Positions 51,505-62,796 of a stretch of 64,000 nt of DNA are shown here, one piece after another. The notes below the pieces were generated by a model. The model was given only the letters and a program-made list of their open reading frames with translations, did no database searches and was not told the DNA's origin. A program made the position numbers and the translations under genes. The stretch comes from Thioclava dalianensis (lineage in GTDB: Bacteria; Pseudomonadota; Alphaproteobacteria; Rhodobacterales; Rhodobacteraceae): positions 124,001 through 188,000 of the forward strand of contig NZ_JHEH01000006.1 in the NCBI RefSeq assembly GCF_000715505.1, in the 5' to 3' direction. Position 1 is the stretch's first letter. Each line of letters starts with the position of its first letter.

Positions 51505-52362
51505 TTACTTGGTGGGAGTCCAGGGTTTCAGCGCATCGATTTTGTCCTGACGGCGCTGCTCTTCGGATTTCGACCAGTCCCCGCCGAAAGCTGCGGATTC
51601 CCACGAGCCATATTCGGGGTTGGGGAACATGATCCATGTCTTGCCCCAGTTATCCTTGGTCTTGTCGAGGAAGGCGTGACGCTCTTCAACCGTGCCTTTC
51701 GCGACATCCGAGAAATCACCGAGGTTGTCGCCCATCAGCAGCGCGACGCGGTAATCCTTGGCAACATAGGCGATCCGGTTTTCTTTGGCCGAGCCCCAGC
51801 CGTCCTGCTCATTCTTGGTCAGCAGGGTGTCGACATTGCCGCCCATCGGGAAACCCAGCTTCTCGAGATTGGCGCGCGTGCCTTTCTCTTCGTCCTTCGT
51901 CCGGTTCGTGACGTAGAAAATCTTGACGCCCTTGCTGTCGGCATATTTCAGGAAGTCGACGGCACCCGCGGTGGCCTTGGTGTCTTCGGCATTGACCCAA
52001 TCCGTCCATTCCTTGGAGCTGAACGAGGTGCCGCGCGTGACCAGCGAGGCCTGATAGCCGTTATTGTCGAGCAGGGTCTCGTCGAGATCGGCGATGATCG
52101 CGATCGGCTTGTCCTCATATCCCGCACTCTCCTTGTCGGGCACAGCCGTCCATTTCTTATCGGCAAGCGCCTCATCGAGGCGGATCTTGGCAAGCTGGAA
52201 CAGCCCCATCGTCACGGCTTTGTACTCGACCGAGTTCTGCATCCACAGCGTTGCGTTCAAAAGATCGTTGGGGGCGGGGGCTTTGGCGTCTTGCGCAAAG
52301 CTCTGGGGGGCTGCGAGGGTCAGCACTGCAGCGCTCGCCGCGAGAAGGGCCTTATAGTTCAT
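51505..52362 (-). CDS. HAD-family acid phosphatase/5'-nucleotidase, lipoprotein e(P4) type
   Basis: Removes phosphate from nucleotides or other esters in the periplasm. The 285-residue protein starts with a signal peptide (LLAASAAVLTLAAPQSFAQD, cut at AQ). HAD motif I is ADLDETLLDNN, motif II is VTNRTKDEEKG, and motif IV is LLMGDNLGDFSDV. A lipobox Cys is not obvious. Haemophilus e(P4) relatives act on NMN and haem-linked substrates; here the substrate is unknown. Start ATG 52362 with GAGAGAG upstream. Confidence 0.87.
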   Translation of the reverse strand: MNYKALLAASAAVLTLAAPQSFAQDAKAPAPNDLLNATLWMQNSVEYKAVTMGLFQLAKIRLDEALADKKWTAVPDKESAGYEDKPIAIIADLDETLLDNNGYQASLVTRGTSFSSKEWTDWVNAEDTKATAGAVDFLKYADSKGVKIFYVTNRTKDEEKGTRANLEKLGFPMGGNVDTLLTKNEQDGWGSAKENRIAYVAKDYRVALLMGDNLGDFSDVAKGTVEERHAFLDKTKDNWGKTWIMFPNPEYGSWESAAFGGDWSKSEEQRRQDKIDALKPWTPTK

Positions 52363-52469
52363 CGTCTCTCTCCATGTTGGTCCGAGGTTCATGCGCCCGG
52401 TATCGATTGTGAAATCTGGCGGCGTGGACGGGAAAACATCAAGAGCAAACTGCTCACCATGACGTGAGA

Positions 52470-53180
52470 TCACCCCCAGCGCACATCGCCCAGAAAGATG
52501 TAGCCAGCGCCGTAGATCGTCTTGATGAGCCGCGGGTTCTTGGGGTCTTCCCCAAGCTTCGTGCGCAGCCGTGAAATTCGTACATCCATTGCCCGATCAA
52601 AGCTTTCCCCGGCCGCGCCGCCAAGGGCCTCTTGCATCTGCGCGCGGCTGATCAGCCGATTGGGGCTTTCCAGAAAGAGCCGCAGCACCTCGCCCTCCGC
52701 ATGGCTGAAGGCCGTTTCATGGCCCTGATCATCGCAAAGTATGTAGCGATCAAAATGCGCGCTCCAGCCTGCAAATTGGGCACGGCTTGCGCGTTGCGCG
52801 CCATCGCCGCGCCCCTTGCGCAGGCGGGCGCGGATGCGCGCGACAACTTCGGCGGGGTCAAAGGGTTTGATGATGTAGTCATCGGCGCCCAGCTCCAGCC
52901 CGGTGACGCGGTCCTGAACCTGAGCGCGCCCCGAGATGATGATGATCGCCGCGCCCGATTCCAGTGCCAGCCGGTGCACGAGCGCCAGCCCGTCGCGATC
53001 GGGCAGGCCCAGATCGACGAGGCAGACATCGGGGGGCTGGCGCTTCAATCCGGCCTCGAACTCGGTGGCGCGGCCAAAGCATGTGGTGCGGAACCCGGCC
53101 TCTTGGAGCGCCTGCGACAAAAGCTGGCGGATCTCGGGCTCGTCATCAAGGATCGCCACGAGGGGTTGGTCTGCGGTCAT
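52470..53180 (-). CDS. Response regulator, OmpR family
   Basis: A 236-residue two-component output protein. The receiver (about 1-120) has LVAILDDEPEIRQ, phospho-acceptor Asp in CLVDLGLPDRDG and Lys in IIKPFDPAE. The C-terminal winged helix (about 130-230) includes SHAEGEVLRLFLESP and MDVRISRLRTKLGEDP. Its ATG overlaps the stop of the kinase gene (ATGA, 53177-53180). Tandem direct repeats upstream of the divergent operon are its likely DNA site. Confidence 0.93.
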   Translation of the reverse strand: MTADQPLVAILDDEPEIRQLLSQALQEAGFRTTCFGRATEFEAGLKRQPPDVCLVDLGLPDRDGLALVHRLALESGAAIIIISGRAQVQDRVTGLELGADDYIIKPFDPAEVVARIRARLRKGRGDGAQRASRAQFAGWSAHFDRYILCDDQGHETAFSHAEGEVLRLFLESPNRLISRAQMQEALGGAAGESFDRAMDVRISRLRTKLGEDPKNPRLIKTIYGAGYIFLGDVRWG

Positions 53181-55084
53181 GGCGTGACTCCCGAGAGCAG
53201 CGCGGCCAGTTCGGCTGCGACAAAGGGTTTCGTGAGCACCGGGCAGGGGGCGGCGGCGCGTAGCGGATCGCCCGGCGGCAAAGAGGTGATCAGCGCCATC
53301 CGGCAGCGGGTGCCGACGGTTCGTGCCAGATCGATCCCGGTGCGCTCCCCGGCAAGCTGGATATCCGAGAGCACGAGGTCGATATCGGGCAGCGTCAGAA
53401 GCGCCTCGGCCTCTGCGGCAGAGCCCGCCTCGACGACCGTATGCTCCATGCCGCGCAGCATCTCGCGGATCGTGGCCCGGATCTCGGGGTCGTCCTCGAC
53501 CAGAAGGATCATCATCGGCGCTATTTTGGGCGGGGCAGGGCGCAGCGGCAGGCGCAGCGTCACCTGCGCCCCCTGCGCGGTGTTGTGCAGGCGGACCGTG
53601 CCCCCGGCGAGCTTGGTCTGATCATAGACCATCGACAGGCCCAGCCCGGACCCTTTCGCGCCCTTCGTCGTGAAGAAGGGATCAAGCGCATGGCGCAAGG
53701 CGGCCTCGGAAAACCCCGGGCCGTCGTCGCATACCGAGATTTCCACCCATGTGTCGCGCACCGGATGGGCGGTGATGCGGATCGTCCCGCCAGAAGCGCT
53801 CATCGCGTCCTTGGCATTGAGCACGAGGTTGAGAAGGCTGTCCTGTAAGGGGCCGGGATCAAGCAGGATCGGGGCGTCGAGATCGCGCGGCGCGACGCTG
53901 AGCGCCACCGCGGTGCCGAGCGTGGGGCGCGCCATCGCCACCAGATCCTCGAGCAGATCGGGCAGCCGCACTGCCTGCGGGCGCAGCGCGCGCGGCGCTG
54001 ACATGCTGGCGAGACGGTCGAGCAGGATGCCGCCGCGCCGGGCGGCTGCGAGCGTGGCGCGCACGGCTTCCTCAGCCTCGCCCGGCAGGCCGTCCATCCG
54101 CTCAAGCCGCCCCTGCAGGCCGAGTATGATCGTCAGAAGGTTCGCGAAGTCATGGGCCAGACCCGAGCTGAGCTTGGCGGCCAGTTCGCGCTTGGCGGTC
54201 TGCGCAAGGGCCGCGCGGGTCTGGGCCTCGTGGGTCACATCGGTGGAGAGGATGAAGACCCCGCCGACCTCGGTATCGCTTGTCTGGTCGGGCGTCAGCG
54301 CGATGCGGATGCGCCGCCCCGAGGGCTCATGGGTGATCTCCGTCACGCCGGGCTCGCCTGCCAGCGCGCGCTCAAATCCCGGACGAATCCGGGCGAAGGT
54401 CTCGGCGCCAAGCGCCGCCTGCACGGGCAACCCCACCACATCGGGCTGCGAGCCGGGCATAACCGAAGACAGTTTGCGATTGGAAAACGTATAGATGAAG
54501 TCGCGATCCACATGCGCGATATGGGCGGGCATCATTTCGGTGACCTGCCGGGTGCGTGCTTCGGTCAGGGTCAGTTCGCGTTTGGCTTCTTCGAGCGCCG
54601 CATTGGTTGCCGCCAAGGCCCGGTTGGCCGCGCTTAAAGCCTCAGCATGATCCAGCACCTGCTCGGAGAGTTCCTCGGAGCGGGCGCGCAGCAGAGCCTC
54701 TTGCCGTTTGATCTCGGTGATGTCGGTATAAACGGTGATCCAGCCCCCCTGCGGAAGCGGTGCCCCTTCGACCGAGATCGTGCGGCCATTGGCGCGGGTG
54801 CGCTCCATGTAATGCGGCGCGAAGGCGCGGGCGGTGTCGACACGGTCGCGCACGGCGGCCTCGATATCCTCAACCGGGCCGTATTCCCCCTTCCCGACGA
54901 GATAGCGGATCGTGTCCTCGAAGGAGGCGCCGCTGCGCGTCAGGGTCTCGGGAAGGTCGAACATGTGCTGGTATTGCGCGTTGGAGACGGCCAGCCGCAG
55001 CTCGCTGTCAAAGATCGACAGGGCCTGCCCGATCAGGTTCAGCCCCGCCCGCGTCAATCGCTCATCCGTGCGTTCCGCTACCAT
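53177..55084 (-). CDS. Hybrid sensor histidine kinase with two PAS domains
   Basis: A 635-residue protein without membrane helices, so it senses a cytoplasmic signal. PAS_7-like domain (about 10-125), coiled coil (about 125-175), second PAS (about 175-295). The phospho-acceptor region LAHDFANLLT has His311, where family members usually have HDFNNLLT. The ATPase domain follows with NAKDAM, CDDGPGFSEA and GSGLGLSMVYDQ, and a C-terminal receiver has phospho-Asp574 in VLSDIQLAGERTG. This is a hybrid kinase paired with an OmpR regulator, divergent from the CoA-ligase/ABC operon, which it probably controls. Confidence 0.92.
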   Translation of the reverse strand: MVAERTDERLTRAGLNLIGQALSIFDSELRLAVSNAQYQHMFDLPETLTRSGASFEDTIRYLVGKGEYGPVEDIEAAVRDRVDTARAFAPHYMERTRANGRTISVEGAPLPQGGWITVYTDITEIKRQEALLRARSEELSEQVLDHAEALSAANRALAATNAALEEAKRELTLTEARTRQVTEMMPAHIAHVDRDFIYTFSNRKLSSVMPGSQPDVVGLPVQAALGAETFARIRPGFERALAGEPGVTEITHEPSGRRIRIALTPDQTSDTEVGGVFILSTDVTHEAQTRAALAQTAKRELAAKLSSGLAHDFANLLTIILGLQGRLERMDGLPGEAEEAVRATLAAARRGGILLDRLASMSAPRALRPQAVRLPDLLEDLVAMARPTLGTAVALSVAPRDLDAPILLDPGPLQDSLLNLVLNAKDAMSASGGTIRITAHPVRDTWVEISVCDDGPGFSEAALRHALDPFFTTKGAKGSGLGLSMVYDQTKLAGGTVRLHNTAQGAQVTLRLPLRPAPPKIAPMMILLVEDDPEIRATIREMLRGMEHTVVEAGSAAEAEALLTLPDIDLVLSDIQLAGERTGIDLARTVGTRCRMALITSLPPGDPLRAAAPCPVLTKPFVAAELAALLSGVTP

Positions 55085-55181
55085 TCCGCCCTCTCCCCCG
55101 CGTGACTATCGCTAGCACCGCGAGCTGCCCCGCGTAAACACGGCTTTCGGGGACGGCGCGTGGTGAAAGGATTCGTTACAC

Positions 55182-55209
55182 TCACGAAACCTTCACGAAA
55201 ACTTTGACA
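55182..55209 (+). promoter_or_regulatory. Tandem direct repeat operator candidate with adjacent TTGACA
   Basis: TCACGAAA occurs at 55182-55189 and 55193-55200, an 11-bp period, the arrangement used by OmpR/PhoB-type regulators bound side by side on one DNA face. TTGACA at 55204-55209 begins 4 bases later and could be the -35 element of an activated promoter, though no good -10 is visible at usual spacing. Confidence 0.55.
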
Positions 55210-55298
55210 GCGAGCGTAAGGACATGCCGCAATGGGCGCGGAGGAATCGCCTGTTTGTGAGAGGGAGATGCCGGGCAACCGGTGCGAGGGAGGACAAT

Positions 55299-57278
55299 TT
55301 GGCTGACGCGGTCGCGACGGGGCAGGACACTGCCCGTTCGATTCCTGCGCTTCTGGCCCGGAATGCCGCGCGCTATAGCGCGCTTCCGGCCTATCGCGAG
55401 AAGGAATTCGGCATCTGGCAAAGCTGGACTTGGGCGCAAAGCGCGCAGGAGATCCGGGCGCTCGCTCTGGGGATGCTGAACCTTGGCGTCGAGCGTGGCG
55501 ATCATGTCGCGATCATCGGGCGCAATCGTCCGGCCCATTACTGGGCGATCGTCGCCAGCCAGATGTGCGGCGCGGTGCCGGTGGCGCTGTATCAGGACGC
55601 GGCTGCCGAAGAGATGGCCTATGTTATGGAGCATTGCGGCGCGCGGTTCGTCGTCGCGGGCGATCAGGAGCAGGTCGACAAGGTCCTTGAGATCGAGGAC
55701 CAGATCCAGCCCCTCACCCATGTTATGTATTCCGACAAGCGGGGCATGCGGAAATACGACCATGCCCGGATGAATGCGCTGGCGGATGTGCAGGCCGAGG
55801 GCCGTGCGGCGCAGCAGCGCCTCGGGGCAGAGCTGGACCGCCGGATTGCCGAGCTGGATTACGACAGCACCTGCGTGATGCTGTATACCTCGGGGACAAC
55901 CGGCAAGCCCAAGGGCGTCGTGCTGTCGAACCGCAATATCATCGAGACCGCGAAGGCCAGCTCGGAGTTCGACCGGCTGAACCGCAATGACGAGGTGCTG
56001 GCCTATCTGCCGCTCGCATGGGTGGGGGATTTTATCTTCTCGGTCGGGCAGGCCTATTGGACGGGGTTCACGGTGAACTGCCCCGAAAGCCCGGACACGA
56101 TGATGACCGATCTGCGCGAGATCGGTCCGACCTATTTCTTCGCGCCGCCCCGGGTGTTCGAGCAGCAATTGACCACGGTGATGATCCGCATGGAGGATGC
56201 GGGGCGGGTCAAGAAATGGCTCTTCGATCATTTCATGTCGGTCGCCCGAGCGGTCGGGCCCGACATTCTGGATGGCAAGCCGGTCGGGCTGGGCAAGCGC
56301 CTGTCCTACTGGCTGGGCGATTTGCTGGTCTATGGCCCGCTCAAGAACACGCTGGGCTATTCGCGCATTCGCGTGGGCTACACGGCGGGCGAGGCGATCG
56401 GGCCAGAGATTTTCAGTTTTTATCGCGCACTCGGGATCAATCTCAAGCAGCTCTACGGGCAGACCGAAGCGTCGGTCTTCATCACCCAGCAGCCCGATGG
56501 TGAAGTGCGCGCCGATACGGTGGGGGTGCCCTCGCCGGGGGTGGAGCTGCGCATCGCCGAGAGTGGCGAAGTGTTCTACCGCAGCCCGGGGACGTTCGTG
56601 GAATACTACAAAAACGCCGAGAGCACCGCCTCGACGAAGGATCCCGAGGGCTGGGTGGCCACGGGCGATGCCGGGTTTTTCGAGACGGAGACCGGTCATC
56701 TGCGCATCATTGATCGCGCGAAGGATGTTGGAAAGCTCGCCAATGGCGGGATGTTCGCGCCGAAATATGTCGAGAACAAACTCAAGTTCTATCCGGCGAT
56801 CCTAGAGGCCGTCGTGTTCGGCGCGGGGCGGGATCGCTGCACCGCTTTCATCAATATTGATCTCTCGGCGGTCGGGAACTGGGCCGAGCGCAACAACCTG
56901 TCCTATGCCTCCTATCAAGAGCTGGCCGGGCATCCGCGCGTCTATGAGATGATCCGTGGCCATATCGAGGCGGTCAACGAGAGTATCGCGCAAGATCCGA
57001 TGCTGTCGGGCTGCCAGATCCACCGCTTCTTGATCCTGCATAAGGAGCTAGACGCGGATGATGGCGAGCTGACGCGCACCCGCAAGGTGCGGCGCAGTAT
57101 CATCGGTGAGAAGTTCCACGATCTGATCGCGGCGCTCTACGATGGCAGCCCCGAGATCTACACCGAGACCGAGGTCACCTATGAGGACGGGCGCAAGGGC
57201 AAGATCCGCGCGACCTTGCGGATCGAGGACGCGGCGGTCGTGCCCGGGCCCGCGCCGGTAGCGGAGGCTGCGGAATGA
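55299..57278 (+). CDS. AMP-dependent acyl-CoA synthetase (FadD-like)
   Basis: Makes an acyl-CoA from an organic acid, ATP and CoA through an acyl-adenylate. The P-loop-like motif MLYTSGTTGKPKG and motif YGQTEA are clear, as is VATGDAGFFE near the C-terminal domain hinge. The frame opens from 55224, but GAGGGAGGA is perfectly spaced before the TTG at 55299, giving 659 residues (first residues MADAVATGQD). The size and N-terminal SIPALLARNA match long-chain or aromatic acyl-CoA ligases; the substrate is unknown. First gene of the operon, and its stop overlaps the livG-like start. Confidence 0.93.
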   Translation: MADAVATGQDTARSIPALLARNAARYSALPAYREKEFGIWQSWTWAQSAQEIRALALGMLNLGVERGDHVAIIGRNRPAHYWAIVASQMCGAVPVALYQDAAAEEMAYVMEHCGARFVVAGDQEQVDKVLEIEDQIQPLTHVMYSDKRGMRKYDHARMNALADVQAEGRAAQQRLGAELDRRIAELDYDSTCVMLYTSGTTGKPKGVVLSNRNIIETAKASSEFDRLNRNDEVLAYLPLAWVGDFIFSVGQAYWTGFTVNCPESPDTMMTDLREIGPTYFFAPPRVFEQQLTTVMIRMEDAGRVKKWLFDHFMSVARAVGPDILDGKPVGLGKRLSYWLGDLLVYGPLKNTLGYSRIRVGYTAGEAIGPEIFSFYRALGINLKQLYGQTEASVFITQQPDGEVRADTVGVPSPGVELRIAESGEVFYRSPGTFVEYYKNAESTASTKDPEGWVATGDAGFFETETGHLRIIDRAKDVGKLANGGMFAPKYVENKLKFYPAILEAVVFGAGRDRCTAFINIDLSAVGNWAERNNLSYASYQELAGHPRVYEMIRGHIEAVNESIAQDPMLSGCQIHRFLILHKELDADDGELTRTRKVRRSIIGEKFHDLIAALYDGSPEIYTETEVTYEDGRKGKIRATLRIEDAAVVPGPAPVAEAAE

Positions 57279-58096
57279 AGGATATGAACGAGGGCTATCT
57301 CACAGCGGATGGGCGCCAGATCGGCGGCGTGGTGATGGAGCTGAAGGATATCACGCTTCGGTTCGGCGGTCTGACCGCGATCGAGAAAATCTCTTTCGAC
57401 ATTCGCGACGGCGAGATTCGCGCGATCATCGGGCCGAACGGTGCCGGGAAATCCTCGATGCTCAACGTGATCTCGGGCTTTTACGTCCCCAGCGACGGTG
57501 AGGTCTGGTTCAAGGGCGTCCGGCGCGGGCCGATGAAACCCTATGAGATCGCGCGGCTCGGCATTGCGCGCACCTTTCAGAACATTGCGCTGTTTGATGG
57601 CATGTCGGTGCTCGACAACATCATGACGGGGCGGCTGACCCATATGAAAAAGGGGCTGATCGCGCAGGCGGGCTGGTGGTTCACCGGAGCGGCGCGCGAG
57701 GAGTATGAAAACCGCGAGAAGGTTGAGCGGATCATCGACTTTCTTGAGATTCAGAATATTCGGAAAACGCCTGTCGGACGTTTGCCCTACGGGCTCAAGA
57801 AGCGGGTCGAGCTGGCCCGCGCCTTGGCCGCCGAACCCAAGATCCTGCTGCTCGACGAGCCGATGGCGGGGATGAATGTCGAAGAGAAGGAAGACATGTG
57901 CCGCTTCGTGCTCGATCTCAATGACGAGTTCGGCACGACCATCGTGCTGATCGAGCATGACATGGGGGTGGTGATGGATCTCTCGGACCGCGTCGTCGTG
58001 ATGGATTACGGCAAGAAGATCGGCGACGGCGCCCCCGATGAGGTGCGCAACAATCAGGCCGTGGTCGATGCCTATCTGGGGGTGGCTCATGACTGA
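57275..58096 (+). CDS. ABC transporter ATPase, LivG-like
   Basis: A 273-residue ATPase of the hydrophobic/branched-chain amino-acid uptake family. Walker A is GPNGAGKSS, the signature is the LivG-like LPYGLKKRVELARAL (no classical LSGGQ), Walker B is ILLLDEPMAGM and the switch His is in LIEHDM. Its ATG overlaps the acyl-CoA synthetase stop (ATGA), so the ligase and transporter are translationally coupled. Family substrates include amino acids, amides, urea and aromatic acids. Confidence 0.93.
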   Translation: MKDMNEGYLTADGRQIGGVVMELKDITLRFGGLTAIEKISFDIRDGEIRAIIGPNGAGKSSMLNVISGFYVPSDGEVWFKGVRRGPMKPYEIARLGIARTFQNIALFDGMSVLDNIMTGRLTHMKKGLIAQAGWWFTGAAREEYENREKVERIIDFLEIQNIRKTPVGRLPYGLKKRVELARALAAEPKILLLDEPMAGMNVEEKEDMCRFVLDLNDEFGTTIVLIEHDMGVVMDLSDRVVVMDYGKKIGDGAPDEVRNNQAVVDAYLGVAHD

Positions 58097-58134: not shown

Positions 58135-59121
58135 ATGCCTGATCAACTGCTCTATGCGATGGAAGTCACGCTGAACGGGCTGATGGCCGGCGTGCTTTAC
58201 GCGCTGGTGGCGCTGGGCTTCGTTCTGATCTTCAAGGCCAGCGGCATTTTCAATTATGCGCAAGGGGTGCTTGCGCTTTTTGCCGCGCTGACGCTGGTGG
58301 GCATTCAGGAGGGTCAGGTGCCTTTCGCCCATCTGATCAACGCGATCACCGGCGGTCATCTGACCCATTTCGGCTGGCAGGTGCCCGCGGTCATCGCAAT
58401 CGTGCTGACCGCAGGCGTGATGGTGCTGCTGGCCATTGTGATCGAGAAACTCGTGCTCAAGCATCTGGTCAGCCAAGCGCCGATCATCCTGTTCATGGCG
58501 ACCATCGGCTTGGCCTATTTCCTTGAGGGCTTCGGCGATGTGATGTGGGGCTCGGACATCAAGACGCTTGATGTCGGGCTGCCGCAGGGGATCAACGATA
58601 CGATCGAGACCACGACTGCGAATTGGTTCGGTTACGGGTTTTTCATCGACAATCTCGATATCGTGGCCACCGTCGTCGCCGTCCTGCTGGTGACCGCGCT
58701 CACCCTGTTCAGCCAGTTCTCAAAGCAGGGGCGGGCCTTGCGCGCGGTGGCGGATGACCATCAGGCGGCGCTGTCGGTTGGCATCTCGCTGCGCTTCATC
58801 TGGGTTCTGGTCTGGTCCATCGCAGGCTTCGTGGCGCTGGTCGCCGGAATCATGTGGGGCTCGAAATCGGGGGTTCAGTTCTCGCTGTCGCTGATCGCGC
58901 TCAAGGCGCTGCCGGTGCTGATGCTGGGCGGGTTCACCTCGATCCCCGGCGCCATCGTCGGTGGCTTGATTATCGGCGTGGGCGAGAAGCTCTTTGAGTT
59001 TTCCATCGGTCCGATGATCGGCGGCGCGACCGAAAACTGGTTCGCCTATGTGCTCGCGCTCGTCTTCCTCGTCTTTCGCCCGCAGGGGCTGTTTGGCGAG
59101 CGCATCATTGAAAGGGTCTGA
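58135..59121 (+). CDS. ABC transporter permease, LivH-like
   Basis: A 328-residue inner-membrane protein with about eight helices. MAGVLYALVALGFVLIFKAS followed by GIFNYAQG is the conserved LivH start, and LRAVADDHQAALSVGI is the permease-ATPase coupling loop. The sequence between helices 3 and 4 (ETTTANWFGYGFFIDNLD) is longer than in some LivH proteins. Pairs with the LivM-like protein downstream. Confidence 0.93.
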   Translation: MPDQLLYAMEVTLNGLMAGVLYALVALGFVLIFKASGIFNYAQGVLALFAALTLVGIQEGQVPFAHLINAITGGHLTHFGWQVPAVIAIVLTAGVMVLLAIVIEKLVLKHLVSQAPIILFMATIGLAYFLEGFGDVMWGSDIKTLDVGLPQGINDTIETTTANWFGYGFFIDNLDIVATVVAVLLVTALTLFSQFSKQGRALRAVADDHQAALSVGISLRFIWVLVWSIAGFVALVAGIMWGSKSGVQFSLSLIALKALPVLMLGGFTSIPGAIVGGLIIGVGEKLFEFSIGPMIGGATENWFAYVLALVFLVFRPQGLFGERIIERV

Positions 59122-59475: not shown

Positions 59476-60552
59476 ATGTTTTATCGCGAAGCAGGCGACT
59501 TCAAATCATCCTATCAGGAGGACAGCCAGACCTTCCCGATCAAATTCGACCGGCTGCGCTATTATGGCGTGCTGATCGTGGCTTTCGGCATCGTGCCGCT
59601 CTTCATCAATGACTACTGGGCCAGCGCGGTCGCGGTGCCGTTTCTGATCTACGCGATTGCAGCGATTGGGCTGAATATACTCGTCGGCTATGCGGGGCTG
59701 GTCTCGTTGGGGACCGGCGGGTTTATGGCGGTGGGCGCCTATTCCGTCTACAAGCTGATGACCGCCTTTCCCGATATCTCGATCTTTGTGCATGTGATCC
59801 TTGCGGGGGTCGTGACGGCGGCGGTCGGCGTGTTGTTCGGCCTGCCAAGCCTGCGCATCAAGGGATTCTATCTGGCGGTGGCGACCCTGGCTGCGCAGTT
59901 CTTCCTTGTCTGGCTCTTCAACAAGGTGCCGTGGTTCTACAACTACTCCGCTTCGGGCCAGATTACCGCCCCCGAGCGCACCGTTTTCAGTGTCTTCGTG
60001 ACGGGCGCGCAGACCAGCGCGACGGCCAAATACATGTTCTGTCTTGTGATCCTGACGCTGGTCGCGCTCGTGGCACGCAACCTGACGCGCGGCACGGTGG
60101 GACGCAAATGGATGGCGATCCGCGATATGGATATCGCCGCCGAGATCATCGGGGTGAACCCGCTCACAACCAAGCTTTCGGCCTTCGCGGTCAGTTCGTT
60201 CTTCATCGGGATTGCCGGTGCGCTGTTCTTCTCAGTCTATCTGGGCGCGGCGGAGGTTGGCGAGGCCTTCGGCATCCAGAAAAGCTTTCTGATCCTGTTC
60301 ATGGTGATCATCGGCGGTCTCGGCTCGATCTTTGGATCCTTCGCGGGGGCGGCGTTTCTCGTGCTGCTGCCGGTGTTTCTCAAGAACGTTCTGGTGGGGG
60401 CGCTGGGATGGCCGACCGATCTGGCCGCGCATATCGAGCTGATGATCGTGGGCGGGTTGATCGTGGTGTTCCTGATCGCCGAGCCGCACGGGCTGGCGCA
60501 GCTTTGGCGCGTGGCCAAGGAAAAACTCCGGCTTTGGCCCTTCCCCTATTGA
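59476..60552 (+). CDS. ABC transporter permease, LivM-like
   Basis: A 358-residue inner-membrane protein with nine or ten helices. GLNILVGYAGLVSLGTGGFM and IGLNIL are the LivM start; the cytoplasmic loop WMAIRDMDIAAEIIGVNPL couples to the ATPase. The extra-cytoplasmic insertion around NYSASGQITAPERTV is longer than in leucine transporters. GGGGAGGGG precedes the ATG at 59476. Confidence 0.93.
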   Translation: MFYREAGDFKSSYQEDSQTFPIKFDRLRYYGVLIVAFGIVPLFINDYWASAVAVPFLIYAIAAIGLNILVGYAGLVSLGTGGFMAVGAYSVYKLMTAFPDISIFVHVILAGVVTAAVGVLFGLPSLRIKGFYLAVATLAAQFFLVWLFNKVPWFYNYSASGQITAPERTVFSVFVTGAQTSATAKYMFCLVILTLVALVARNLTRGTVGRKWMAIRDMDIAAEIIGVNPLTTKLSAFAVSSFFIGIAGALFFSVYLGAAEVGEAFGIQKSFLILFMVIIGGLGSIFGSFAGAAFLVLLPVFLKNVLVGALGWPTDLAAHIELMIVGGLIVVFLIAEPHGLAQLWRVAKEKLRLWPFPY

Positions 60553-60629: not shown

Positions 60630-61916
60630 ATGAAGAAGACCCTGACCGCTTGGGTCGCGGCGGCGATCACGCTGACCTCGGCCCCGGCATTCGCCGATCT
60701 GGTGGTGCCAAATCTGAGCTATCGCACGGGGGCCTATGCCGCGAATGGCATTCCCTATGCCGATGGCTTCAACGACTATTTCACCCTGCTCAACGAGCGC
60801 GACGGCGGCATTGGCGGCGAAAAGGTGCAAAGCCCGGAATGCGAGACCGCCTATAACACCGAAAAAGGTGTCGAGTGCTACGAGAGCACGAAGGGCACCG
60901 GGGCGTTGGTCTATAACCCGCTCTCGACCGGGATCACCTACCAGCTGATCCCGAAGATGTCAGCGGACGGTATCACGCTTTACACGCCGGGCTATGGGCG
61001 CACGTCGGCGGCCAATGGCAAAGTTTTCAAATGGGTGTTCAACTTCCCTGCCAACTATTGGGACGGTGCCTCGGTTGCGATCAAATACATCCTTGATCAG
61101 GAAGGTGGCGACATCAAAGGCAAGACCGTCGCTCTGGTCTATCACAACTCCGCCTATGGCAAGGAGCCGATCCGCACGCTTGAGGAGCTTGCCAAGAAAC
61201 ACGGGTTCACCCTCAAAGCGATCCCGGTCGATCACCCCGGTCAGGAGCAGAAGTCGCAATGGCTTCAGATCCGCCGCGAGAAGCCCGATTACGTGCTGAT
61301 GTGGGGTTGGGGCGTGATGAACCAGGTCGCGATCCAAGAGGCGGTGAACATCCGCTATCCGATGGATCATTTCATCGGTGTCTGGTGGTCGGGCTCGGAG
61401 AACGACGTGGCACCTGCGGGCGACAAGGCGTCGGGCTACAAGTCGCTCTCGTTCCACGGGACGGGGGGCGCCTATCCGGTCTATGACGATCTCAAGAAAT
61501 ATGTCGTCGATACCGGCAAGGCGAGCGGCGCAGGCGATCAGATCGGAACGATGCTATATTCGCGCGGCATGTACGCGGCGATGATCATCTCCGAGGCGAT
61601 CCGCAAGGCGCAGGAAATGACCGGGAAGTCCGATGTCAACGCGGCCGAAGTGCGCGATGGTTTCGAGAATCTCGACCTGACCGAGGCGCGGCTTGAAGAG
61701 CTGGGCCTGCCGAATTTCGCGCAACCGATCAAGGCAAGCTGCGAGAACCATGGCGGGCCGGGCTCGGCCAAGGTGTTCCAGTGGGATGCGGCTGCCAAGA
61801 AGTGGAACGAGGCATCGGACTGGATCAGCTCGGATCGCGAAGTCCTCGATCCGCTGATTGCCGAGGATTCGGCGGCCTATGCCAAGGAAGCTGGCATCGA
61901 GGAAAGCTGCAAGTGA
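60630..61916 (+). CDS. Periplasmic substrate-binding protein (LivK/Peripla_BP_6 type)
   Basis: A 428-residue exported protein with signal peptide (LTAWVAAAITLTSAPAFA). The two-lobed fold is seen from SYRTGAYAANGIPYADGFND and LNERDGGIGGEKV through ALVYHNSAYGKEPI. Five or six cysteines (PECETAYNTEKGVECYES, KASCENHGG, EESCK) are unusual for the family and could form disulfides. GGGAGGAG precedes the ATG. The substrate is unknown; two CoA ligases in the operon suggest a carboxylic acid. Confidence 0.92.
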   Translation: MKKTLTAWVAAAITLTSAPAFADLVVPNLSYRTGAYAANGIPYADGFNDYFTLLNERDGGIGGEKVQSPECETAYNTEKGVECYESTKGTGALVYNPLSTGITYQLIPKMSADGITLYTPGYGRTSAANGKVFKWVFNFPANYWDGASVAIKYILDQEGGDIKGKTVALVYHNSAYGKEPIRTLEELAKKHGFTLKAIPVDHPGQEQKSQWLQIRREKPDYVLMWGWGVMNQVAIQEAVNIRYPMDHFIGVWWSGSENDVAPAGDKASGYKSLSFHGTGGAYPVYDDLKKYVVDTGKASGAGDQIGTMLYSRGMYAAMIISEAIRKAQEMTGKSDVNAAEVRDGFENLDLTEARLEELGLPNFAQPIKASCENHGGPGSAKVFQWDAAAKKWNEASDWISSDREVLDPLIAEDSAAYAKEAGIEESCK

Positions 61917-61922
61917 CGACCC

Positions 61923-61956
61923 GGCCCCCGGCCTTGCTGTCGGGGGCCCAATTTTT
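61923..61956 (+). terminator. Intra-operon hairpin with T run between the binding protein and livF-like gene
   Basis: GGCCCCCG (61923-61930) pairs with CGGGGGCC (61941-61948), followed by CAATTTTT. It lies 7 bases after the binding-protein stop and 16 before the next start, where a partial terminator or 3' stabiliser would raise binding-protein over transporter mRNA. Confidence 0.65.
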
Positions 61957-61971
61957 CCGTGGAGTTTTGCG

Positions 61972-62796
61972 ATGCGCGATGAGACCGGCGGCGATACGGC
62001 CCTGCTTGAGGTCAACAATATCGAGGTGATCTACAATCACGTCATCCTCGTGCTCAAAGGCGTCAGCCTGAGCGTGCCCAAGGGCGGGATCACCGCGCTT
62101 CTGGGCGGCAATGGCGCGGGCAAGACCACCACGCTCAAGGCAATCTCCAGCCTGCTTGGATCCGAGCGGGGCGAGGTCACCAAGGGCAGCATCCTGTATC
62201 GCGGCGAGCGCGTGGAGGGCGGCGCCCCGGCAGAGTTGGTGCGCAAAGGCGTCATTCAGGTGATGGAGGGGCGCCATTGTTTCGAGCATCTGACTGTTGA
62301 AGAGAACCTTCTGACCGGCGCCTATACGCGGCGCGACGGGCGGGCGGCGATCCAGTCGGATCTAGAGATGGTCTACACCTATTTCCCGCGGCTGCGCGAG
62401 CGGCGCAAAAGTCAGGCGGGCTATACTTCGGGCGGCGAGCAGCAGATGGTCGCGATGGGTCGCGCGCTGATGAGCCGCCCCGAGATGATCTTGCTCGATG
62501 AGCCCTCGATGGGGCTTGCGCCGCAGCTGGTCGAGCAGATCTTCCAGATCGTGAAGGCGGTCAATGAGAGCGAGGGCGTGACTTTTCTGCTGGCCGAGCA
62601 GAACACCAATGTCGCGCTGCGCTATGCCCATTACGGCTATATCCTCGAAAGCGGGCGCATCGTGATGGATGGGCCCGCCGCTGATCTGCGCGAAAACCCA
62701 GATGTGAAAGAGTTCTATCTCGGGATGGGTGATGACGGACGCAAGAGCTTTCGAGACGTGCGTAGCTACCGCCGACGCAAGCGCTGGCTCGCGTGA
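61972..62796 (+). CDS. ABC transporter ATPase, LivF-like
   Basis: The second 274-residue ATPase of the transporter. Walker A LGGNGAGKTTTLK, signature TSGGEQQMVAMGRAL and Walker B ILLDEPSMGLAPQLVEQIF are complete. The C-terminus is extended and basic (KSFRDVRSYRRRKRWLA) compared with E. coli LivF. GGAG precedes ATG 61972. Confidence 0.93.
   Translation: MRDETGGDTALLEVNNIEVIYNHVILVLKGVSLSVPKGGITALLGGNGAGKTTTLKAISSLLGSERGEVTKGSILYRGERVEGGAPAELVRKGVIQVMEGRHCFEHLTVEENLLTGAYTRRDGRAAIQSDLEMVYTYFPRLRERRKSQAGYTSGGEQQMVAMGRALMSRPEMILLDEPSMGLAPQLVEQIFQIVKAVNESEGVTFLLAEQNTNVALRYAHYGYILESGRIVMDGPAADLRENPDVKEFYLGMGDDGRKSFRDVRSYRRRKRWLA

Follow-up and report, generated by a model that had tools for sequence, protein, structure and literature searches.

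A conserved 46-bp block upstream of an acyl-CoA synthetase operon in Rhodobacteraceae, the predicted operator of the adjacent OmpR/PhoB-family response regulator

Introduction

In the stretch of Thioclava dalianensis DNA analyzed herein (64 kb, referred to as the window), two identical octamers precede a TTGACA hexamer in the region that separates a two-component system from a divergent acyl-CoA synthetase (ACS) gene. Tandem half-sites spaced by 11 bp beside a -35 element are the standard arrangement of OmpR/PhoB-type sites, and the question that this locus raises is whether the repeat is such a site and, if so, which protein binds it, which promoter it serves and in which direction it acts. 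We propose that the octamers belong to a 46-bp block that is, very probably, the operator for the neighboring response regulator (52470-53180), as predicted by comparison of orthologous loci. The operating principle is an ordinary one, as this type of tandem site is known, and what lacks a description, in a literature search of partial coverage, is this particular kinase/regulator system and its site.

Results and Discussion

Gene Setting of the Repeat

The genes on either side of the repeat are as follows.

52470-53180, minus strand: OmpR/PhoB-family response regulator, with receiver (D56) and winged helix carrying SFDRAMDVRISRLRTKL; proposed ligand of the block
53177-55084, minus strand: hybrid histidine kinase, with PAS_7, PAS_4, H-box (H311), HATPase and C-terminal receiver (D574)
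55299-57278, plus strand: AMP-forming (AMP-binding) acyl-CoA synthetase (ACS), proposed first gene of the controlled operon
57275-58096, plus strand: LivG-like ABC ATPase, overlapping the ACS stop
58135-59121, plus strand: LivH-like permease
59476-60552, plus strand: LivM-like permease
60630-61916, plus strand: periplasmic binding protein (Peripla_BP_6)
61858-62796, plus strand: LivF-like ABC ATPase, true start probably later

The regulator has the receiver and the C-terminal winged helix (Trans_reg_C) of the OmpR/PhoB family (PF00072, E = 1e-24; PF00486, E = 4e-18; the gathering score is exceeded in each case) and the ACS gene is divergent from it, so that the octamers do lie, as originally predicted, in the divergent intergenic region of an OmpR-type system. 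The regulator gene overlaps that of the kinase by four bases, and the kinase is cytoplasmic-looking, with no transmembrane-like stretch found in its sequence. To the right of the block the plus strand encodes ACS together with a complete branched-chain-type ABC transporter (LivG-H-M, binding protein, LivF). For ACS itself a TTG start at 55299 is favored over the ATG at 55224; the GGGAGGA ahead of this TTG is conserved and a related locus (L057) has ATG at the same position. Directly downstream of the regulator is a gene for a lipoprotein e(P4)-family 5'-nucleotidase (51505-52473, minus strand; TIGR01533, 242 bits), which is found beside the regulator in only three of 60 related loci.

The Octamers Are Part of a Conserved 46-bp Block

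The sequence TCACGAAA is present at 55182-55189 and again at 55193-55200, a start-to-start distance of 11 bp, and the second copy is followed by ACT (3 bp) and then by TTGACA at 55204-55209, just as had been read from the window initially. The exact 19-bp octamer-pair pattern has a single occurrence in the window and a single occurrence in the 4.18-Mb genome. Judged from the window alone the pair is borderline and no more than suggestive: chance would place about 1.4 exact 8-mer repeats at lag 11 in 64 kb of sequence, and the window has three. Gapless alignment of 61 intergenic regions between the kinase/regulator pair and ACS yields, in 57 of them, a gapless and sharply bounded block (consensus TGTTACAATTCGTAAGRATTGSGAAAANNTCASGAAAAANTTGACC), with an information content that is high throughout and at background level on both flanks. 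The block and its half-sites are listed below.

55164-55209, plus strand: conserved putative operator/promoter block, 46 bp, TGAAAGGATTCGTTACACTCACGAAACCTTCACGAAAACTTTGACA, as aligned without gaps across 57 orthologous intergenic regions
55171-55179, plus strand: half-site 1, ATTCGTTAC (family consensus ATTCGTAAG), shared with an imperfect dyad TGTWAS-N5-GTWAS
55182-55190, plus strand: half-site 2, TCACGAAA followed by C (family consensus TTGGGAAAA; T and G invariant)
55193-55201, plus strand: half-site 3, TCACGAAA followed by A (family consensus TCAGGAAAA; T and G invariant)

Within the block the T, G and A positions recur every 11 bp, giving a general half-site TNNNGAAA, and within-sequence identity is highest at lag 11 (0.49; column-permutation P = 0.0002, or P = 0.0015 for any lag from 4 to 16). 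With lag 11 the best and TTGAC next to the repeats in most loci, the block has the form of a tandem operator, that is, of 10-11 bp direct repeats beside a -35 element. The original prediction envisaged a site for two regulator monomers upstream of an activated promoter and was staked on the repeats not being absent from orthologous loci. The block is kept in essentially every such locus, and the 11-bp spacing and the abutment on the -35 hold throughout the aligned intergenic regions, but there are three half-sites in 46 bp rather than two, the additional one lying upstream of the first octamer at a distance of about 10-11 bp. The strict identity of the octamers is likewise a property of this genus, where 10 of the 12 members with the locus have the exact TCACGAAA pair; outside it half-sites 2 and 3 read TTGGGAAAA and TCAGGAAAA, which differ from each other and retain T, G and A at the positions given by the general half-site. 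Half-site 1 matches half-site 2 more weakly (40%) than half-site 2 matches half-site 3 (58%), and the upstream third of the block, TGTTACAATTCGTAAG, forms a partial dyad (center at column 8, 63% complementary), which is why a second protein could bind in this upstream part.

The Block Co-occurs With the Kinase/Regulator Pair

Two sets of genomes were examined, 16 of the genus and 198 of the family, in which kinase orthologues are present in 12 and 85 genomes, respectively, and the response-regulator orthologues in the family genomes are distributed nearly as the kinase is. The arrangement of kinase and regulator facing ACS and LivG is kept in most of 60 loci inspected, and in the genus the kinase, ACS and block occur together in 12 genomes while all three are absent in the other four. 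A sequence model of the block was run on the 198 family genomes and its matches were compared with the distributions of kinase, ACS and regulator. Among the ACS-bearing genomes the block is found in 83 of 84 that have the kinase and in one of 55 that do not (Fisher P = 2e-36), where the 46-row model was partly built from the tested genomes, a circumstance that leaves the absence in kinase-less genomes unaffected. The sole kinase-bearing genome without a model match (G047) still shows a degenerate block at the expected position, and its regulator is the most diverged of the set (only 54-55% identical). Two apparent blocks on different contigs of another genome (G102), one of them a match that ends three bases from the contig end, were counted as one assembly-split site. 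In a partly independent set of 80 named genomes, retrieved by way of the kinase and including some that had also entered the model, the block lies just upstream of the kinase in 69.

A tree of ACS (114 rows) was built to allow for shared ancestry, and on it the block accompanies ACS in 62 of 62 cases with the kinase and in none of 52 without, with at least 14 state changes and with nine independent pairs that are all concordant (sign test P = 0.004). The association also extends over considerable divergence, as a member of a different family has a kinase and a regulator of only 41 and 50% identity and yet carries the block at the orthologous position, and one genome (G145) contains two distant paralogous kinase/regulator pairs that also have the block, in one case before another CoA-ligase/Liv operon and in the other before an EtfB-like gene. 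In the main clade of regulators, at least 95% of the members retain the recognition-helix segment SFDRAMDVRISRLRTKL. Distant paralogous pairs at three loci (L250, L251 and L252, in G145 and G122) face other CoA-ligase/Liv operons or an EtfB-like gene, which suggests a wider class of such modules. A regulator relative of 75% identity in another genome (G204:C7:138866-139504) is without the kinase, the ACS orthologue and the block; it may be an orphan that outlived the rest of the system, and this pattern fits a block that lives with its target.

Probable Direction of Control and Apparent Regulator Exchange at the ACS Promoter

The core of the ACS promoter consists of two elements.

55204-55209, plus strand: -35 hexamer TTGACA, of which TTGAC is conserved in most loci
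55228-55233, plus strand: weak -10 candidate CGCAAT with an 18-bp spacer, the best match (3 of 6) at spacers of 15-19

The best -10 elements of the kinase-bearing promoters have a mean score of 2.5 of 6, compared with 2.2 for the shuffled background, and a sigma-70 promoter scan of 55000-55350 gave nothing at threshold on either strand, consistent with a weak -10. We infer that the block activates the ACS promoter, because a good -35 and a poor -10 with an adjacent upstream site resemble an activated promoter.

The kinase-less relatives provide a counterpart to this arrangement. A perfect TGAACN4GTTCA palindrome lies upstream of ACS in 21 of 53 kinase-less genomes (for example at L141, L147, L156, L170 and L180), where 0.025 would be expected by chance, and in 15 of these 21 it is 8-10 bp before TTGAC, an element that the ACS promoter retains in these 15 kinase-less genomes although another sequence has taken the place of the block; the palindrome is found in none of the 61 kinase-bearing intergenic regions. 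These palindrome-type promoters have a mean -10 score of 3.8 of 6, in contrast to the kinase-bearing ones (P = 2e-5). In four palindrome genomes the same sequence also precedes genes that, named by eye, resemble those of isovaleryl-CoA dehydrogenase, acyl-CoA dehydrogenase, an SDR enzyme and TetR-type regulators, and further palindrome loci include L370, L373, L375, L380 and L382. No conserved TetR gene was found next to ACS in the kinase-less genomes. The genes that follow the additional palindromes suggest that a TetR-type regulator of fatty or branched-chain acid metabolism controls the ACS operon in the palindrome genomes, and they hint that the substrate of the operon is a fatty or branched-chain acid. 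Replacement of the block by the palindrome at the same promoter would be an apparent exchange of regulators. The same operon in kinase-less relatives would come under a different regulator, as in the TetR-type regulons for such acids, whose site is a palindrome and probably of the repressor type, unlike the direct-repeat block of the kinase-bearing genomes.

As the palindrome occupies a similar position, near TetR-type genes of a family that usually represses, one might ask if the response regulator also binds its block to repress ACS. This we regard as unlikely, since the block lies upstream of the -35/-10 core and does not cover it, and a promoter with almost no -10 is suited to activation. 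In the activated arrangement that we prefer, the cytoplasmic PAS kinase would sense an intracellular cue, the response regulator would then be phosphorylated, two or three of its winged-helix domains would bind the block head-to-tail on one face of the DNA, and the bound regulator would recruit RNA polymerase to an activator-dependent ACS promoter, enabling the cell to take up what we infer to be a carboxylic or fatty acid and to load it onto CoA.

Probable Identity of the Protein That Binds the Block

The neighboring regulator is our choice of ligand because of the nine concordant contrasts on the ACS tree, the blocks of the distant paralogous pairs and the 11-bp direct-repeat register, which is typical of OmpR/PhoB-family regulators. 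These same three observations argue against binding by some other transcription factor that is encoded elsewhere and co-inherited with the kinase/regulator pair. Such a factor could be dimeric, which the partial dyad in the upstream third would suit, and co-occurrence cannot separate the regulator from a factor that is lost and gained with it, but overall we consider this quite improbable.

Within the OmpR/PhoB family, the response regulator is not VirG, OmpR or PhoB, as its scores against the NCBIfam equivalogs are below the respective cut-offs. VirG is the best match, at 155.5 bits far below the cut-off of 344, and the values for OmpR proper, the osmolarity regulator, and PhoB are 150.7 bits (cut-off 331) and 127.4 bits (cut-off 296.2). 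Operators of the Pho box type, with two or more 11-bp direct repeats near the -35, are similar to the block in having direct repeats of this register that abut the -35 with an OmpR-type regulator gene adjacent, but the block keeps the -35 instead of replacing it and has three half-sites, and its half-site TNNNGAAA is unlike the CTGTCA of the Pho box. The vir box is TNCAATTGAAAY, and the TACAATTCGTAAG part of the upstream block resembles its core, which we offer as a lead. Unlike the single dodecamer of the vir box, the block has repeated half-sites, and there are no virulence genes at the locus.

The Block Probably Serves the ACS Operon

The original prediction tied the site to the regulator, and that link is supported; the control, however, would be on the ACS side. 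The block ends at the ACS -35, about 110 bp before the coding region, and in at least eight genomes in which the kinase genes are displaced (G017, by 7 kb; G025; G067; G107, by 254 kb; G114; G128; G143; and G188, by 1.39 Mb), it remains about 110 bp before ACS. From these positions the block is assigned to the ACS operon rather than to the regulator genes, because it stays with ACS when the kinase genes lie elsewhere. A mainly autoregulatory role at the kinase/regulator operon might have been expected from the location of the block in the shared divergent region of most genomes, less than 300 bp from the kinase in 72 cases, but it is highly improbable given the displaced cases, in which the block is retained at ACS and two kinase upstream regions (L089 and L095) score at background, and given that the block ends at the ACS -35 while some 25-55 bp separate its other end from the candidate kinase promoter.

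55109-55138, minus strand: candidate kinase promoter, TTTACG, 18 bp, TAGCGA, read from intergenic sequences

Near the kinase start, many relatives conserve the GGTGCTAGC of this segment, which resembles an extended -10 of the kinase promoter, and GGCTAGCACC is conserved on the plus strand in many loci.

As for chance, that two octamers merely fell 11 bp apart can be given virtually no weight, as the doubt raised by the expected number of such repeats is removed by gapless conservation of the block across the family and by its tree-based co-occurrence.

The block model has a single strong match in the window's genome (E = 1e-7; the next is at E = 0.8), and weak matches in other genomes occur only at the number expected by chance. 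This single match makes the system look like one dedicated to a single target in the window's genome.

Wider Implications

With the block, a kinase/regulator pair that occurs commonly in the Rhodobacteraceae, including Rhodobacter, Paracoccus and Roseovarius, acquires a concrete candidate operator and target that can be tested. The comparison also points to regulators having been exchanged repeatedly at one conserved promoter, a natural test case for the rewiring of bacterial promoters. A bolder reading, which we put forward tentatively and consider rather doubtful, is that the block is a composite enhancer in which the upstream dyad and two tandem half-sites form an unusual three-subunit arrangement, and that it represents a widespread class of two-component systems, so far undescribed, each dedicated to one carboxylate-CoA-ligase/Liv operon and repeatedly replaced by a TetR-type regulator that acts at the same promoter.

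The Leader of the ACS Transcript

An Rfam search of 55050-55400 gave no structured RNA match up to E = 1, and a conserved RNA structure in the ACS 5' UTR was rejected, as there are individual hairpins with no consensus structure in the alignment and a mean z of only -0.9. Many relatives have a stem-loop, GCCGG..CCGGC, just before the ACS Shine-Dalgarno sequence, and within the 5' leader (55234-55298) a AGAATCGC stretch is frequently conserved.
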